In this document: piece after piece, positions 1 through 10,895 of the stretch | Layout of the letters: every line of letters starts with the position of its first letter | How positions within the stretch are numbered: position 1 is the stretch's first letter | NCBI GenBank assembly: GCA_035609245.1 | Contig: CP141202.1 | Location: 1-64,000 of the forward strand | Direction of reading: 5' to 3' | Length of the DNA stretch: 64,000 bases | Source of the DNA: Bacteroidales bacterium MB20-C3-3 | GTDB taxonomy: Bacteria > Bacteroidota > Bacteroidia > Bacteroidales > UBA932 | The notes under the pieces: model-generated | What the model saw: the letters and a program-made list of their open reading frames with translations, nothing else | Database searches by the model: none | What the model was told of the DNA's origin: nothing | Program-made: the position numbers and the translations under genes

Positions 1-1243
1 TTATGACAATACCGGCAGTTATCGCAATAAAGAATAGTGCAAAACCTGTAAGTATTCTCTTTGGATGCCTTGACAGAAGATGCCCTAGATTAGAGAGAGC
101 CTTTGCTATAATGCTTTTACTCTCTCCGTTGGGATGAAAATGAATTTTTCCCTTTTTCAAATATGAGAGAACAGCCGGTATAAAAGTGAGGCTAAGAAGG
201 AGAGCAATTCCGATTCCTATCGCCGATACAACTCCCATCTGGCTTGCAGGAAGTAGTATATGAACAGTTAAACCCAGAATACCCACAATAGTAGTTAGTC
301 CGCAGATTATAACAGGTCTTTTAAGGTATGAAAGAGACTCCTCAACAATATCTGCCATAGATGACTCAGGATCAATTGCATTAAGCTCCTGGTAGCGTGC
401 CACAAAATGGACTCCGTAATTATTAGCAATAGCTATCATCATAATTGGTATCAGCACTCCTATAATGCTAAGCTCCCATCCAAGAAGAGGAATCAGGGAC
501 ATTGAAATTGCAATTGAAATAAGTACCACTCCAAACGGGAGTATCATCCCCTTGAATTCCCGGAAGGAAAACCAAAAGAATATAAGCATTATAAGCAGAC
601 CCAGTGGTAGTAAAATCATTATATCCTTGCTGATTTTAGCATTTGCCTCATCCCTCAGATATGGCTGTCCGTTTATAAGAACCTCCTCGCTGCCTGGATA
701 TAAAGTAATAATTGAATCAATCTGATTCATTAACTCAGCGTCTTTAACAGAGAGGTCAGAGTTCAGAAGTATCATGGTATTTTTAAAGTCTTCAGATACA
801 AGCAATTTATAAGCAAGATCATTGTCTTTAATTCTGTTTCTAAGCTCTTCACGCTCCTCTTCTGTCTGAGGATAATAATCAATTACAGGATCCACCAACA
901 TCATCCCATCCTCACCCCGTATGTTTTTTGCTGTTGAGAGTGACTGGATGGGAGAGAGCGTTCCCAAATCCCTGAAGCCGTTTGTAAGATTATCAACCCT
1001 CTCAAGAGTCTCCGGTGCCAGAACATCCTCAGTGGAGAGAATTACTACTATAGGCTCCTTTGTCCCAAAAAGATCCCCAATCTTCTGATTATTTATTCTG
1101 GATTCAATATTGTCAGGTAAATAGCTCTCAAGGTCAGGATTTATCCTGAGCGAAAACAGAGGAATGACTGCAGCCGCTGCAAGGATTGCCGTAAGCATGA
1201 TGATGAGTTTGCGGTTTTTCAGTATAAATGATTTTCTTTCCAT
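1..1243 (-). CDS. RND/MMPL-family exporter, N-terminal part (runs off the left edge)
   Basis: The frame is open from an ATG at 1243 to the window edge, giving about 414 residues. It starts with a single membrane segment, followed by a periplasmic domain of about 180 residues and then several hydrophobic segments. This is the first half of an RND-superfamily (MMPL, SSD-like) inner-membrane exporter driven by ion gradients. It begins 10 bases after the stop of the DUF1302-like outer-membrane gene, so the two are probably one operon. RND/MMPL genes next to DUF1302 genes are a known pairing, thought to move lipids or hydrophobic compounds. The C-terminal half is not in the window and the substrate cannot be told. 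Confidence 0.85.
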   Translation of the reverse strand, partial: MERKSFILKNRKLIIMLTAILAAAAVIPLFSLRINPDLESYLPDNIESRINNQKIGDLFGTKEPIVVILSTEDVLAPETLERVDNLTNGFRDLGTLSPIQSLSTAKNIRGEDGMMLVDPVIDYYPQTEEEREELRNRIKDNDLAYKLLVSEDFKNTMILLNSDLSVKDAELMNQIDSIITLYPGSEEVLINGQPYLRDEANAKISKDIMILLPLGLLIMLIFFWFSFREFKGMILPFGVVLISIAISMSLIPLLGWELSIIGVLIPIMMIAIANNYGVHFVARYQELNAIDPESSMADIVEESLSYLKRPVIICGLTTIVGILGLTVHILLPASQMGVVSAIGIGIALLLSLTFIPAVLSYLKKGKIHFHPNGESKSIIAKALSNLGHLLSRHPKRILTGFALFFIAITAGIVI

Positions 1244-1253
1244 AGGGTATTTA

Positions 1254-2576
1254 TTAGAACGAAGCTTTTAATTCAAGGAAAAGGCCATTCATAACAGGGG
1301 CTGAATAGTCATAGAGAGACTCCTTCTCTCCGGTCATTATATGTCCTCCGATTGCCATTGAAAGATTGTCTGCAATGGTCCATGAGAGTTTAGGCCTTAG
1401 CAGAAACTCTCTTGAAGTAATATTATAGTAGGCAGTTAATTCTGCAGTAATAGTGTCATATGCAAAACTTTTCCTTCCGGTAAGTGCAAACGCATGGTTG
1501 CTCTTTTTCTGCTGGCCAAATATTTTTCTGTTAAACATCCTTGTCTGATAATCAACCATCCGGCTCATATAATAGAGCACCTGATCAGGATCTGTTCCAG
1601 AAGGCTGAGGTTCAAAAATGGGCTCAAAGGATGGAGTGTATCTGCCGATATACTGGAAAATTCCCATTATACCCCAGAATTCCCTCTCAACGGCCGCTAC
1701 ATAGGCGAGGGAAGGGAGGGGGATAAAGAGAGAATCGCCACCACCCTTTGTTATATTCCATGCTGCCTCTCCCCTTAGAATCCAGGATCCTGCAGGTATT
1801 GCCAGGTCAGCACCTATTGTCTGCTTCCTGTATGGTGTAGAGGAATAGTTTATTGACGGCATTGGGTTGGGTCCGTTTAAATCCAGCTCAATACCTTTAA
1901 GATTGAAACCATGATATGGGTCGTAACCTCTGAAATATGAGAGAGAGAAACCAACACCGGGCAGTTCAAAATTTAACCGTCCGGCAATTGAAGAATTTGC
2001 AAAACTGAACTCAGGATTTGTCTCTTTACCAAATTTTGCCATTCCACCCATATCAAAGAGGTCAAACCGGTAGTTAGATTGTTTATAAAACGGAATTGCA
2101 ATCAAATCCAGATCTATTGAAGGTGTGATCCTGTATTTAATACGGGCCATAAGATTAGCCCTCAGCTGGTCATCCATATCAGATGTCAGGAAAAAGTAGT
2201 CCCTTGGGGAGATATTATCTGTTGGGCTGAAACCATCTGTTCTCCCCCATTTTACAATCTGATTACCTGCAATAAAGTCAAATTTATCTGAAACATAACC
2301 TGCATAGGCCTCCATGATCTCAAGCCTGTTGTAAAATTCACCAAAATGGTGTCCCCCCAGAAACCAGACCTCGGCATTGAAAACAGTATGCTTACCGCTG
2401 TACTTACCTTTAAGTGCAAACTGGGCAAAAACATTGGTGAGATCGTAGTTTTTTGAAAATCCCTGGAATGACCCCCTGACATACCCGCTGAACTCTGCGT
2501 TCTCTCTTATACTCTCCTGGGCAGGGAGGTTTAGCGAAATAAGGAGAGTAAGCGCAGTAATAATTACCTTTTTCAT
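1254..2576 (-). CDS. DUF1302-like outer-membrane beta-barrel protein
   Basis: About 440 residues. A signal peptide starts MKKVIITALTLL and ends near LPAQ. The mature chain alternates polar and aromatic strands, as in an outer-membrane barrel. The stretch around GNQIVKWGRTDGFSPTDN is characteristic of DUF1302-type proteins, which occur next to RND exporters. The frame is open further upstream to 2609, but a TAACTTTG promoter element at 2597-2604 puts transcription start inside that extension, so the ATG at 2576 is preferred. The RND exporter follows after 10 bases. It is probably the outer-membrane partner of that exporter. The family assignment rests on motif resemblance. Confidence 0.7.
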   Translation of the reverse strand: MKKVIITALTLLISLNLPAQESIRENAEFSGYVRGSFQGFSKNYDLTNVFAQFALKGKYSGKHTVFNAEVWFLGGHHFGEFYNRLEIMEAYAGYVSDKFDFIAGNQIVKWGRTDGFSPTDNISPRDYFFLTSDMDDQLRANLMARIKYRITPSIDLDLIAIPFYKQSNYRFDLFDMGGMAKFGKETNPEFSFANSSIAGRLNFELPGVGFSLSYFRGYDPYHGFNLKGIELDLNGPNPMPSINYSSTPYRKQTIGADLAIPAGSWILRGEAAWNITKGGGDSLFIPLPSLAYVAAVEREFWGIMGIFQYIGRYTPSFEPIFEPQPSGTDPDQVLYYMSRMVDYQTRMFNRKIFGQQKKSNHAFALTGRKSFAYDTITAELTAYYNITSREFLLRPKLSWTIADNLSMAIGGHIMTGEKESLYDYSAPVMNGLFLELKASF

Positions 2577-2596
2577 AACTCTGTTTTTTGACAGGG

Positions 2597-2604
2597 CAAA
2601 GTTA
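2597..2604 (-). promoter_or_regulatory. Bacteroidetes -7 promoter element for the DUF1302-like gene
   Basis: The minus strand reads TAACTTTG, matching TAnnTTTG. Transcription would start near 2590, 14 bases before the ATG at 2576. No clear -33 TTTG was seen. Confidence 0.45.
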
Positions 2605-2653
2605 CTCACTTAGAAGTGGTATGTGAAGTTTAGTTTGTACGGATTGAACGGAA

Positions 2654-7379: not shown

Positions 7380-8387
7380 TCATAACAGCTCTACACCCTC
7401 AAGAGCCATAATATTTCTCTGCTCCTCTGACCATATACCAACCTGAACTTCACCGATATGTCTCTTTTTAAGCATAAACATACAGACTCTGGATTGCCCG
7501 ATGCCTCCACCAATTGTGCATGGTAACTCTCCATTAAGTAACATGGAGTGATAAAGCAGATTTGAGCGCTCAGGGCATCCTTTTAAATTAAGTTGTTTCA
7601 TTAATGCTTCAGGGTTAACCCTTATTCCCATTGAAGATAGTTCAAGAGGACATTTTAAAAGGGGATGCCATACAATTATGTCCCCGTTCAGACCTATATA
7701 CCCATCCTCGTTTTGTGTACTCCAGTCATCATAATCCGGAGCTCTGCCATCGTGAGCCTCACCATTTGAAAGTTCGCCACCTATACCCATGATAAATATA
7801 GCTCCATACTCCCGGGCAGCAATAGCCTCTCTCTCCTTAGCAGTAGTATCGGGATACATTGTCAAGAGCTCTTCACTATGTAAAAATTTTATTTCAGGAG
7901 GTAAGACTGACTTTATTTCTTTATAATTCAGTTCAATCTCTTTTTCGGTATTACGCAATGCCTGATATATTGTATTTACAGTCTCCCTTAGTTTCTCAAC
8001 GCATCTTTGGTCTGAGGATATTACCTGCTCCCAGTCCCACTGGTCAACATAAACAGAGTGAAGGTTTGTGTAATCTTCATCAGGCCTCAGTGCCCTCATA
8101 TCTGTAATAATGCCACCTCCGGGTTTCATACCCATCTGCATAAGCCTTATCCTCTTCCATTTTGCAAGAGAGTGAACTACCTGTGCCCTGTTCTCTCCAA
8201 GAGCCTTCACGGGAAATGAGACAGGACGCTCTGTGCCGTTAAGATCATCATTTATACCTGTCCCCTCAAGAACAGCAATAGGTGAAGAGACCCTTACAAG
8301 GTTTAGTTTAGCACACAGGTCTCTTTCAAATCTCTCTTTTACAAAGGCAATAGCCTGTTCGGTTTCCAAAAGCTGATAGTAGTCCAT
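7380..8387 (-). CDS. asnA: Aspartate--ammonia ligase (AsnA)
   Basis: 335 residues, close to the 330 of E. coli AsnA. It makes asparagine from aspartate, ammonia and ATP in the cytoplasm. The family core is visible: RPVSFPVKALGENRAQVVHS, YVDQWDWEQVI, the acidic loop around NEDGYIGLNGDI, and the C-terminal GGGIGQSR motif of this class II aminoacyl-tRNA-synthetase-like fold. The start at 8387 is preceded by a leader holding an Asn-rich peptide gene and a strong terminator, so expression is probably set by asparaginyl-tRNA charging. It reads away from the SPFH gene. Confidence 0.97.
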   Translation of the reverse strand: MDYYQLLETEQAIAFVKERFERDLCAKLNLVRVSSPIAVLEGTGINDDLNGTERPVSFPVKALGENRAQVVHSLAKWKRIRLMQMGMKPGGGIITDMRALRPDEDYTNLHSVYVDQWDWEQVISSDQRCVEKLRETVNTIYQALRNTEKEIELNYKEIKSVLPPEIKFLHSEELLTMYPDTTAKEREAIAAREYGAIFIMGIGGELSNGEAHDGRAPDYDDWSTQNEDGYIGLNGDIIVWHPLLKCPLELSSMGIRVNPEALMKQLNLKGCPERSNLLYHSMLLNGELPCTIGGGIGQSRVCMFMLKKRHIGEVQVGIWSEEQRNIMALEGVELL

Positions 8388-8412
8388 TTTTTAAAATTTT
8401 GAGTTTATGGCA

Positions 8413-8443
8413 TAAAAAAACAGCCTCCGTTGCGGGAGGCTGT
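8413..8443 (-). terminator. Intrinsic terminator in the asnA leader (attenuator)
   Basis: On the minus strand ACAGCCTCC (8443-8435) pairs perfectly with GGAGGCTGT (8428-8420) across a 6-base loop and runs into seven T. It lies 26 bases before the asnA ATG, so it can only stop asnA's own transcript. Its 5' arm can alternatively pair with GGAGGTTGT (8494-8486) inside the upstream leader-peptide gene, nine pairs with one G-U, forming an antiterminator. Confidence 0.9.
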
Positions 8444-8471
8444 CATTAGTGTTATTCTTTTATCCTGTTTA

Positions 8472-8555
8472 TTACACTTTATGGCACAACCTCCTCGCCC
8501 GAATGTTATTATTATTCAGGTTATTATTAAGAAGATTGTTAGAGTGAATAAACAT
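8472..8555 (-). CDS. Asparagine-rich leader peptide of the asnA attenuator
   Basis: A 27-codon reading frame from an ATG at 8555 to a TAA at 8472-8474. Nine of its 27 residues are Asn, in runs of two, three and four (residues 6-17 read NNLLNNNLNNNN). The codons after the runs (AGG AGG TTG TGC) contain the antiterminator strand at 8494-8486. A ribosome stalled on the Asn codons would leave this strand free to pair with the terminator arm and let transcription into asnA. One that reaches the stop would cover it. This is the classic layout of amino-acid attenuators such as those of trp and his operons. The peptide itself probably has no function. Confidence 0.85.
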   Translation of the reverse strand: MFIHSNNLLNNNLNNNNIRARRLCHKV

Positions 8556-8574
8556 TTGTTTCTCTTTTCTTGCA

Positions 8575-8609
8575 CAAATTATAAAAATAATTTTGGAAGA
8601 TTAAACAAA
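8575..8609 (-). promoter_or_regulatory. Promoter of the asnA leader
   Basis: Minus-strand TTTG (8609-8606) and TATAATTTG (8583-8575) are spaced by 22 bases. The -7 box has one extra base relative to TAnnTTTG. Transcription would start near 8568, about 13 bases before the leader-peptide ATG. It interleaves with the divergent SPFH promoter. Confidence 0.5.
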
Positions 8610-8622
8610 TGTAATATATTTG
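8592..8622 (+). promoter_or_regulatory. Promoter of the SPFH gene
   Basis: TTTG at 8592-8595 and TATATTTG at 8615-8622, 19 bases apart, match the Bacteroidetes primary-sigma consensus well. Transcription would begin near 8629, about 28 bases before the ATG at 8657. Confidence 0.65.
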
Positions 8623-8656
8623 ATGTTGTAATAATATCAAAACAATATCAAATATT

Positions 8657-9511
8657 ATGAAAAAAGAGGTCTCAATTAAAGTCTTTAATGGTTACCTGAT
8701 GGTAATTGTTGCAATTGCACTTTTGTCAGTAATTATTTACTCATTTACTAACGAAATGATTATTCCCGGGCTCCTGAGCCTGTTATGCTTTGTCTTTGTT
8801 GCAGCAGGATTTTTTATAATCGGCCCAAATAACTCTAAGGTACTTCTCCTGTTTGGGGCTTATAAGGGGTCAGTAAAGGATAATGGTTTTTTCTGGGCAT
8901 TACCCTTTTATATTAAAACTTCAATATCTCTAAAAGCCAGAAACTTTGAAAGCGAAAGAATTAAGGTAAATGACAAATTGGGAAACCCAATTCTGATCAG
9001 CTCAATATTAGTATGGAGAGTTGAAGATACTTACAAAGCTCTTTTTGATGTAGATAATTATGAGCAATTTGTAAAGGTTCAGACCGATGCGGCCGTACGC
9101 AAGCTCGCGGGTTCATTCCCATACGATCAGTTTGAGGATGAGGGAGCCTCAATTACATTGAGTTCAAATTTTGAAGATGTAAGCAAATGCCTTGAAGAAG
9201 AGATATGTGAAAGGCTTAAGCTGGCCGGATTATCAGTTATTGAGGCTAGAATCGGCTATCTTGCTTATGCTCCTGAAATTGCTCAGGCAATGCTTAAGAG
9301 GCAGCAGGCTTCTGCAATAATTGCAGCAAGATTTAAAATGGTTGAAGGTGCTGTCGGAATGGTAGAAGGAGCTCTTAAACTCTTATCAAAAAAGGGTATA
9401 ATAGATCTTGACGAGGAGAAAAAAGCAGCAATGGTAAGTAATTTGCTTGTAGTACTTTGTGGTGACAGAGAGACAACTCCTGTAATCAATGCCGGTACTT
9501 TAAACCAGTAA
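8657..9511 (+). CDS. SPFH/Band 7 domain protein
   Basis: 284 residues. Two hydrophobic segments at about 10-60 are followed by an SPFH (stomatin/prohibitin/flotillin) domain at about 65-260, with the family-type stretches VKVQTDAAVRKLAGSFPYD and GLSVIEARIGYLAYAPEIAQ. A helical tail rich in Ala and Gly follows. SPFH proteins form ring-like oligomers on the membrane and organise proteases or lipid domains. A 53-codon Arc-like gene starts 11 bases after the stop and probably shares the message. The partner protease or process cannot be told from here. Confidence 0.88.
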   Translation: MKKEVSIKVFNGYLMVIVAIALLSVIIYSFTNEMIIPGLLSLLCFVFVAAGFFIIGPNNSKVLLLFGAYKGSVKDNGFFWALPFYIKTSISLKARNFESERIKVNDKLGNPILISSILVWRVEDTYKALFDVDNYEQFVKVQTDAAVRKLAGSFPYDQFEDEGASITLSSNFEDVSKCLEEEICERLKLAGLSVIEARIGYLAYAPEIAQAMLKRQQASAIIAARFKMVEGAVGMVEGALKLLSKKGIIDLDEEKKAAMVSNLLVVLCGDRETTPVINAGTLNQ

Positions 9512-9522
9512 AACCAAATTAA

Positions 9523-9684
9523 ATGGCAGAGAAGAAGTCATTTGTATTAAGAATAGATGTGGAAACCATGAAAGCCATCGAAAAATGGGCTGCCGATGAA
9601 TTTCGTAGTATAAATGGTCAGTTGGAGTGGATTATCAGTAAAAGTCTTAAGGATGCCGGAAGGTTAAAAAAGAGGGAGCCCTAA
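9523..9684 (+). CDS. Arc-like ribbon-helix-helix small protein
   Basis: A 53-residue reading frame starting MAEKKSFVLRIDVETMKAIE. The short beta strand (SFVLRID) followed by two helices (METMKAIEKWAADE-like and NGQLEWIISKSLKDAG) is the ribbon-helix-helix fold of Arc/MetJ DNA-binding proteins. The same short protein is often found directly behind SPFH genes, as here with an 11-base gap. Its stop overlaps by 4 bases the stop of the convergent flavoprotein gene. DNA binding is predicted from the fold; the target is unknown. Confidence 0.8.
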   Translation: MAEKKSFVLRIDVETMKAIEKWAADEFRSINGQLEWIISKSLKDAGRLKKREP

Positions 9685-10895
9685 CCAAGTTTGCCGGCAA
9701 TAAAGCCTGTAGTCCATGCGGCCTGAAGGTTGTAGCCGCCGGTTAAAGCATCAATATCCAGAACCTCGCCTGCGAAGTAGAGATTTGGAACCACTTTACT
9801 CTCAAGTGTATTCATATTGACACTATCCAGACTAACTCCGCCGCAAGTTACAAACTCTTCACGGAAGGTGGCCTTTCCTTTAACTGTATATTCGTCGTTT
9901 GTGAGGGTATTGACAATTTTGTTGATACCCTTTTTGCCTAATTCAGACCATCTTTTATCAGAAGAGATTTCGCACTTTTCAAGCAAATGCATCCAAAGCC
10001 TTACAGGAAGGGAGTATGGTCTTACTGATGATAGCATTTTTCCTGAGTGCTCTGCAATTATTGAATCAATCTCAAATGTGACAATTTCGTTATTTGGTTC
10101 ATTTATCCAGTTAATCCCAATTTTAAAATTGTAATCTCTCTCTCTTAGAATTCTTGCACCAAAGGAGGATAATTTTAGAATTGCCGGACCACTCATACCC
10201 CAGTGGGTAATCAGAAGTGCACCATCGGCTTTTATCTTTGTCCCCTGAATTGTAACAGCAGCCTTTTCAACAACAACACCCATAAGGTTCTTTACAGGCT
10301 CAGCAGGCATATTGAATGAAAAGAGAGAGGGGAGGGGATCAACAATTTTATGCCCGCATCTCTCAAGCCAGAAAAGACCCTCTCTTTTAGGAGAGCCACC
10401 AGTTGCAATGATTACCTTATTAAATAGTTGCGGCTCTCTTTTTATGTCTTTATAATAAATATTAATACCCTCAGAGGCCGCTTTGATATCTTCAATCCCC
10501 GTTCCCGTAGTAATTTTTATCCCGAGTCTTTCAGTCTCTCCAAGAAAACAGTCAATAATAGTTTGAGAATCCTGTGATGCCGGGAAGAGACAATTATCAT
10601 CCTGGATAGTTAGAGGAACACCTCTTGATTCAAACCACTCTATAGTGTGGTGGTTATTGAATACTCCAAACAGTTTTTTCAGCTGACGACCTCCTCTGGG
10701 GTATGCTGTACAGAGCTGGTCAATAGTGGCGCATCCATTGGTAACATTACATCTGCCTCCGCCCGATATTTTTACTTTAGAGAGTAGCTGCTGAGATTTT
10801 TCCAGAATTATTACCTCTGATTCCGGATAATTCTCCTTTGCAGAGATTGCTGCAAAAAAGCCGGCTGCCCCGCCCCCTATGACTGCAATTCTCAT
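9681..10895 (-). CDS. NAD(P)/FAD-dependent oxidoreductase, HI0933/YhiN family
   Basis: 404 residues. The N-terminal dinucleotide-binding motif GGGAAGFFAAI is followed by SGGGRCNVTN and, near the C-terminus, LYFAGEVLDIDALTGGYNLQ, the flavin-binding signature of the HI0933-like (YhiN, aminoacetone oxidase-like) family. The length matches the family. These cytoplasmic flavoproteins have poorly defined substrates. It begins 1 base after the ABC-F gene's stop, so the two are probably co-transcribed. Confidence 0.92.
   Translation of the reverse strand: MRIAVIGGGAAGFFAAISAKENYPESEVIILEKSQQLLSKVKISGGGRCNVTNGCATIDQLCTAYPRGGRQLKKLFGVFNNHHTIEWFESRGVPLTIQDDNCLFPASQDSQTIIDCFLGETERLGIKITTGTGIEDIKAASEGINIYYKDIKREPQLFNKVIIATGGSPKREGLFWLERCGHKIVDPLPSLFSFNMPAEPVKNLMGVVVEKAAVTIQGTKIKADGALLITHWGMSGPAILKLSSFGARILRERDYNFKIGINWINEPNNEIVTFEIDSIIAEHSGKMLSSVRPYSLPVRLWMHLLEKCEISSDKRWSELGKKGINKIVNTLTNDEYTVKGKATFREEFVTCGGVSLDSVNMNTLESKVVPNLYFAGEVLDIDALTGGYNLQAAWTTGFIAGKLG

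Follow-up and report, generated by a model that had tools for sequence, protein, structure and literature searches.

The asnA gene of Bacteroidales bacterium MB20-C3-3 is very probably controlled by a ribosome-mediated transcription attenuator that would sense charged tRNA-Asn, as judged from the sequence. Within the analysed stretch of 64,000 nucleotides, referred to here as the window, an Asn-rich leader frame, an intrinsic terminator and a set of mutually exclusive RNA pairings precede asnA. Together with their conservation and spacing in related loci, these elements support the original prediction of an Asn-codon attenuator at this site. We assign the element to the leader-peptide attenuation kind with high confidence.

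The leader frame and competing helices upstream of asnA

The gene under putative control, asnA (7380–8387, minus strand), encodes a 335-aa aspartate-ammonia ligase. The protein matches PF03590 (E = 3.3e-99) and TIGR00669 (390.8 bits; cut-off 292.8), in agreement with the identity first proposed for it. A gap of 269 bases separates asnA from a Band_7 gene (8657–9511, plus strand). Because this upstream gene is divergent, the terminator in the gap ends no upstream gene and belongs to the leader RNA of asnA itself. Directly 3´ of the Band_7 gene is a 53-aa frame (9523–9684, plus strand), which scores 20.1 bits against an Arc-like DNA-binding domain, below the cut-off of 20.4.

The genome is assembled as one contig and encodes AsnS. 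GatB was not found in it (0/1) by a search that was positive in 12 of 14 control genomes. The sole PF00733 match in the genome, considered as an AsnB that would provide a second asparagine route, is MnmA. Since neither AsnB nor GatB was found, AsnA appears to be the only asparagine-making route encoded in this genome, which would make charged tRNA-Asn a sensible signal for asnA. At a genome completeness of 97.24%, an overlooked AsnB or GatB is possible. No Asn leader was seen before asnS in the frame listing of the same genome, where 58 nt separate asnS from the preceding gene.

The leader frame (8472–8555, minus strand) encodes the peptide MFIHSNNLLNNNLNNNNIRARRLCHKV. Nine of its 27 codons specify Asn and are arranged in runs of 2, 3 and 4, as predicted, so that codons for the end product are clustered in a short frame before asnA. 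An intrinsic terminator, identified with a terminator scanner at 8444–8414 on the same strand, is located between the frame and the gene. It comprises a hairpin (8444–8419) and a T-run extending to 8414, and the distance from the T-run to the asnA start is 26 nt, which matches the strong terminator that had been placed 26 bases before asnA. The scanner and the fold define region 4 (8414–8428), which consists of the 3´ arm (8428–8419) and the U-tract. Region 3 (8435–8443), the 5´ arm, was obtained from the scanner, fold and duplex calculations and is also used by the antiterminator. Region 2 (8486–8496; core 8494–8486), the antiterminator strand, begins 12–13 nt past the first base of the last Asn codon. 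The duplex between 8494–8486 and 8443–8435 scores −15.3, whereas shuffled sequences average −7.3 (p = 0.003). The claim that an antiterminator strand within the leader frame shares the terminator 5´ arm therefore stands, and through this common arm the antiterminator excludes the terminator.

A further pairing, which was missing from the original prediction, completes the classical 1:2/2:3/3:4 layout. Region 1 (8529–8539), the 5´ strand of a protector hairpin, covers the first Asn codons and two Leu codons and pairs with region 2 (8539–8529 with 8496–8486; duplex p = 0.010). The protector also contains an inner helix (8498–8520; 8520–8514 with 8504–8498) that surrounds the run of four Asn codons. 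The folding energies of the competing helices are −15.2 kcal/mol for 1:2 with the inner helix (z = −4.71), −17.3 kcal/mol for 2:3 (fold of 8494–8433; z = −4.44) and −17.9 kcal/mol for 3:4 (z = −7.06). The entire stretch from 8580 to 8405 folds better than its shuffled versions (z = −5.52).

This arrangement suggests the following sequence of events. RNA polymerase would start upstream of 8555, at around 8570 or 8600 according to the promoter box used, and a ribosome would translate the leader while the polymerase transcribes. When Asn-tRNA is ample, the ribosome would reach the stop codon and cover region 2; regions 3 and 4 could then form the terminator, and transcription would stop 26 nt before asnA. 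If the leader is not translated, region 1 would pair with region 2 and the terminator would form too. When Asn-tRNA is short, the ribosome would stall in the Asn runs and cover region 1, leaving region 2 just free; region 2 would pair with region 3, no terminator would form and asnA would be made. We infer the promoter, the stalling, the coupling of polymerase and ribosome, and the direction of the response, with asnA switched on at low levels of charged tRNA-Asn.

The promoter is the weakest part of this reading. Bacteroidetes promoters follow a −33/−7 pattern, and the candidate promoter region (8575–8613, minus strand) contains two boxes of this type. An exact TANNTTTG box, TACATTTG (8613–8606), precedes the leader ATG by 58 nt. 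A near match, TATAATTTG (8583–8575), precedes it by 28 nt and occupies the usual box position of the genus relatives. Among 16 genus rows, nine have a TANNTT(T/C)G box 26–32 nt before the leader ATG, and L127 has it at 55 nt. A sigma-70-like site is also predicted at 8640–8613. The putative promoter thus comprises an exact box and a near match, and the box in use and the transcription start are uncertain, since the exact box lies at 58 nt and only the near match lies at 28 nt.

Pairing and spacing in related leaders

The 25 leaders in which the pairings were evaluated are 24 first, single or nearest units, plus the second unit of L125. All 25 have a terminator hairpin between the frame and asnA, with energies from −10.1 to −23.0 kcal/mol. 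For the 2:3 pairing, the best duplex between the stretch past the last Asn codon and the terminator 5´ arm was compared with 300 shuffles, and p ≤ 0.05 was obtained in 23 of the 25 leaders; the exceptions are L126 (0.060) and L125 (0.080). Under two scorings, the values for L042 are 0.043 and 0.063 and those for L125 are 0.080 and 0.100, both marginal. The 1:2 pairing reaches p ≤ 0.05 in 14 leaders and lies above this value in the other 11. The leader rows are related, and no joint p was used.

Region 2 begins 11–17 nt past the first base of the last Asn codon in each of the 25 leaders, within a search span that extends from 3 nt past that codon up to the terminator. Four further leaders have the same spacing (L134, 15 nt; L175, 17 nt; L220, 11 nt; L038, 15 nt), with 2:3 p values of 0.12, 0.003, 0.003 and 0.286, respectively. 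L038, which has four Asn codons and the p value of 0.286, was not counted as a leader. A ribosome with a codon in its A site would cover approximately 13 nt from that codon. The spacing of 11–17 nt is therefore where the front of a stalled ribosome should lie, according to the sequences.

Folding with a masked ribosome is consistent with this geometry. Each RNA was folded as far as arm 3, with all positions behind the ribosome front masked and a 13-nt front assumed. In the window, the probability of the 2:3 helix is 0.05 in free RNA, rises to 0.81 when the ribosome stands at the last Asn codon and falls to 0.00 when it stands at the stop codon; the corresponding means over the 25 leaders are 0.43, 0.75 and 0.01. 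With this assumed footprint length, a stalled ribosome frees region 2 and a ribosome at the stop codon covers it. Ribosome-free RNA in which arm 3 is just complete already prefers the 2:3 helix in 11 of the 25 leaders, and these would consequently read through if untranslated. In this folding model, the protector in those 11 leaders would be an imperfect one.

Across 19 aligned leaders, 84.7% of the 2:3 cells pair, compared with 57.9% in the best slid version, and 80.9% of the 1:2 cells pair, compared with 66.5%. Cells changed on both sides are moderately above shuffles, as 12 of 500 shuffles reach the count for 2:3 and 18 of 500 for 1:2. Pairs changed on both sides show no excess over shuffles in the same 19 leaders (180/500 for 2:3; 155/500 for 1:2).

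It could be argued that the Asn-rich frame encodes a working small protein, with the hairpin serving as an ordinary terminator or marking the end of an RNA. The Asn columns of the alignment alternate between AAT and AAC codons while the Asn residue stays unchanged, so these positions are conserved as residues, which fits a protein. The residues that follow the Asn runs vary by lineage, whereas the strand of the RNA pairing with the terminator is preserved. In the Hymenobacter-type rows, these residues read GRLL, WKAM, WKAI, WKAV or RKAI because the frame passes through one and the same RNA strand in different ways. The residues vary while the pairing strand stays, which indicates that these rows preserve the RNA rather than the end of the peptide. 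Furthermore, the frame precedes asnA in separate lineages with a different sequence (L042 and L220), where the same layout is built from other strands: TAGCAG with CTGCTA in L042, and GCCGGCGG with CCGCTGGC in L220, the latter identified by eye. The hairpin present between frame and gene in all the tested leaders also argues against a working small protein, and we regard this explanation as very unlikely.

A leader acting mainly at translation or through Rho, with stalling altering access to the asnA start or the loading of Rho, would be another route to the same regulation. It draws its strength from the fact that coupling of polymerase and ribosome in these bacteria is an assumption here. 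Against it stand the strong intrinsic terminator and the fold ending at the asnA start, which leaves the 13 nt immediately preceding that start unpaired, and such a mode of action is improbable to a high degree. The preferred reading thus remains transcription attenuation by the leader peptide.

Distribution of Asn leaders and chance controls

AsnA is rare across the phylum (22 of 394 genomes), and it is present in 127 of 299 family genomes and in 23 of 25 genus genomes. Two of the 23 genus upstream regions (G192 and G219) are cut by contig ends, which leaves 21 readable loci, and an Asn leader is located upstream of asnA in 17 of them. The four genus genomes without a leader (G111, G122, G143 and G198) carry an asnA from another clade, and a leader model, R1, gives no match in them. 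Outside the genus, leaders were observed in Hymenobacter (L034–L037), Solirubrum (L032), the family coded f12 (L214 and L218), an uncultured Mesonia (L042), a Bacteroidales MAG (L098) and the distant locus L220. Among the loci read in the window's family, leaders occur only in the genera coded g1, g3 and g4, the latter two represented by L134 and L175; many asnA genes of the family (g9, g14, g15, g22 and others) lack such a leader. The original prediction had named related asnA upstream regions as the place where Asn-rich frames and terminator/antiterminator pairs should recur, and they do so in the genus, in Hymenobacter, in Mesonia and in others. It had also named a terminator kept without the Asn frame as evidence to the contrary. 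No such case was seen in the genus; one was found outside it, in L180, which has a terminator-like hairpin (−10.8 kcal/mol) and no leader. The near relative L175 has a leader, and the absence in L180 looks like decay as far as the sequences indicate. In L175, short GC-rich repeats (CCGCCAAAGGCAAC and the like) are located between the leader terminator and asnA.

R1 was built from 19 sequences, and its automatic structure retains only a 7-pair 2:3 helix. It matches 18 of the 25 genus genomes at E < 1e-6, including G219 at the contig end; 12 of these match by construction and six are independent. Against 395 phylum genomes, R1 gives eight matches at E ≤ 0.01. The three strong ones (the window, L214 and L218) all served in building the model, and the five weak ones are leaders for other amino acids.

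In an asnA tree of 113 rows, built with a quick method and SH-aLRT support only, the leader-labelled rows form one group of 30 rows that includes the window (support 99) and one group of 10 rows (support 100). Hymenobacter and the window's genus fall together in the 30-row group. The tree-based count of leader changes (8) was not used because the cut-off upstream regions of L129, L132, L078 and L194 are labelled as leaderless, as are L220, L038 and L217. We infer that asnA was likely transferred together with its leader.

The leader also stands out against sequence composition. Among short ATG frames in the 400 nt before asnA, up to nine Asn codons fall within a 15-codon stretch, compared with a maximum of seven in 300 dinucleotide-preserving shuffles. 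Asn enrichment at p ≤ 0.01 was observed in 16 of 20 genus loci. The remaining hits at this level (Tyr, three; Pro, one) are confined to loci in which an Asn leader already exists; in L119 and L128, the Tyr frame overlaps that leader in a different reading frame. Nine further loci prove nothing by count because they were picked for having a leader. A detector requiring at least five codons of one amino acid within 15 and a terminator near the stop codon was applied to 216 asnA upstream regions, which are non-identical and include close relatives. It gives 28 hits for Asn, three for Tyr, two for Ser, and one each for Thr, Lys and Glu. On 20 shuffled sets, the mean is 0.05 Asn hits per set, and on the reverse strand of the 216 regions the detector gives no Asn hit, one for Ile and one for Leu. 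Among ATG frames of 8–45 codons with a terminator near the stop codon, on both strands of the 64-kb window, only two reach 5/15 of one amino acid: the asnA leader and an Arg-rich frame (9716–9820) that is antisense to a gene.

These controls bear on the notion of a chance AT-rich stretch of AAT repeats, open by luck and placed beside a constitutive terminator. The region is indeed AT-rich with AAT and AAC as its Asn codons, and the DNA pattern AAYAAYAAYNNNAAYAAYAAY (≤1 mismatch) has four genome matches, the window's own included, compared with seven for the backward control. Dinucleotide-preserving shuffles almost never yield such a leader, and its presence in most readable genus loci, together with the other comparative data, opposes chance, which we consider almost negligible as an explanation. 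The same pattern was discarded as a means of finding further Asn-rich leaders; its match in L228 falls within a 477-aa frame. Control of asnA by a T-box or metabolite riboswitch, with the frame incidental, would have a parallel in Firmicutes, where T-boxes upstream of asn genes sense uncharged tRNA, and is scarcely credible here, because the 11 Rfam matches at 8200–9000 (E up to 10) include no T-box or riboswitch family and no amino-acid leader family above its gathering cut-off, the top bit score being that of Phe_leader (22.7; gathering score 55).

Serial leaders, other amino acids and known systems

Two Asn-rich frames in series, each with a terminator, precede asnA in L119, L128, L125, L131 and L098, and L042 has a second, weaker candidate leader. 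In L125, the second leader is nearer to asnA and another is located further upstream. The second frames are of another type, in which Asn runs are followed by Pro codons, as in NNNNNNNRPPP. By eye, the Pro codons serve as region 1 and GGCGGG or a similar strand serves as region 2. The 2:3 p values of the second units are 0.05 (L131), 0.10 (L125) and 0.21 (L098), so the automatic scoring is weak, and the second-unit terminator of L119 and L128 has an energy of −15.8 kcal/mol. The frames and terminators in series are observed directly, and the second units are candidate switches.

Leaders rich in other codons were observed before other genes. L236 and L238 have Ile-rich leaders (MSNLNNIIIVINIIAIQQ; MTNFNNIIITIISIIAIQQ) with terminators, 420 nt upstream of a 414-aa gene, which are likely Ile attenuators. 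The gene behind the L236 leader is threonine ammonia-lyase (NF006390), and that of L238 is assigned only by its similar start. In L237, a Val/Ile-rich leader, MLSTVISLVIIRVIGISYRSGKAIC, and a terminator are located upstream of the frame 1–1476 (minus strand), ilvD (TIGR00110). In L239, the gene at 1826–2644 (plus strand), which encodes a uroporphyrinogen-III C-methyltransferase, is preceded by two serial frames rich in Cys (MKNLFTVCMPCNCCAKCGEVAAMV; one ends in MLCCCCCC), both with a terminator. L257, L258 and L259, from the window's genus, have a Tyr-rich leader, MKSTNYNINSLYYYYHRLPRVGYGIGLC (or ...YYYYRRL...), and a terminator upstream of a 485-aa gene of the tryptophanase/tyrosine phenol-lyase family (NF009709 for L257). 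In L235, asd (467–1459, minus strand), which encodes aspartate-semialdehyde dehydrogenase (TIGR01296), is preceded by a terminator and a leader, MIINITIKKHTKMKRVLHGRL, that contains Lys, Thr and Met codons.

A broader proposal, on which we are evenly divided, is that Bacteroidota possess a portable design, consisting of a codon cluster, a spacing of ~11–17 nt, an antiterminator strand rich in G and a terminator rich in C, which would be retuned to many amino acids (Asn, with Ile, Val/Ile, Cys, Tyr and Lys/Thr as candidates). On this proposal, asnA and its leader would be a mobile unit, Asn leaders would have arisen more than once, and serial pairs would act in an AND-like manner, two Asn attenuators in series giving a steeper response to asparagine. 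Asparagine would join the amino acids sensed by leader-peptide attenuation, with a complete and conserved layout in a group where such attenuators are hardly described. With one gene, an apparently sole asparagine route and one short leader, the locus offers a clean test bed. The sequence-and-structure model and the spacing rule are usable to find other such switches, and the model already yields the Ile, Val/Ile, Cys, Tyr and Lys/Thr candidates.

The available text of a study of Flavobacterium psychrophilum presents strong indications of attenuation by leader peptides upstream of amino-acid operons and describes structured 5´ elements before pheA, hisG, alaS and other genes (PMC9723704). These leaders share the phylum-level group and the inferred mechanism with the window; asparagine and asnA are absent from the main text of that article. 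As far as the accessible parts of the two reports go, a Bacteroides thetaiotaomicron map contains short frames reminiscent of leader peptides, without asparagine (PMC7366714), and an RNA survey of 26 genomes contains a Cys leader before cysS and no Asn leader (PMC8632094). The portions available of PMC4833913, PMC2864571, PMC5009743, PMC9045200, PMC11838884 and PMC3675131 contain no Asn leader. In the literature covered by the search, in which subscription journals are thinly represented, no description of an Asn leader peptide was found. This outcome agrees with the original statement that few or none have been described, and we conclude with moderate confidence that an Asn leader peptide is previously unreported. 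Lopatovskaya et al. 2010 and Lyubetsky et al. 2007 are said to be attenuation surveys, and an earlier Asn prediction may exist among them.

Leader-peptide attenuation is classical, with the trp, his, phe and ilv attenuators of the E. coli type as its examples. The asnA leader shares with these attenuators the codons for the end product, the 1:2, 2:3 and 3:4 helices, and a ribosome at the stop codon that covers region 2. It differs from them in the amino acid (Asn), the gene (asnA), the position of region 2 inside the leader frame, the Bacteroidota lineage, and the two Asn leaders in series found in some relatives. In Firmicutes, asn genes are controlled by T-boxes, which likewise read the charging of tRNA-Asn and end in a choice between terminator and antiterminator. 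In contrast to the asnA leader, the T-box binds the tRNA directly, without a leader peptide. The asnA gene of E. coli is controlled by AsnC, which places the same enzyme family under asparagine control with a DNA-binding protein rather than an RNA leader.
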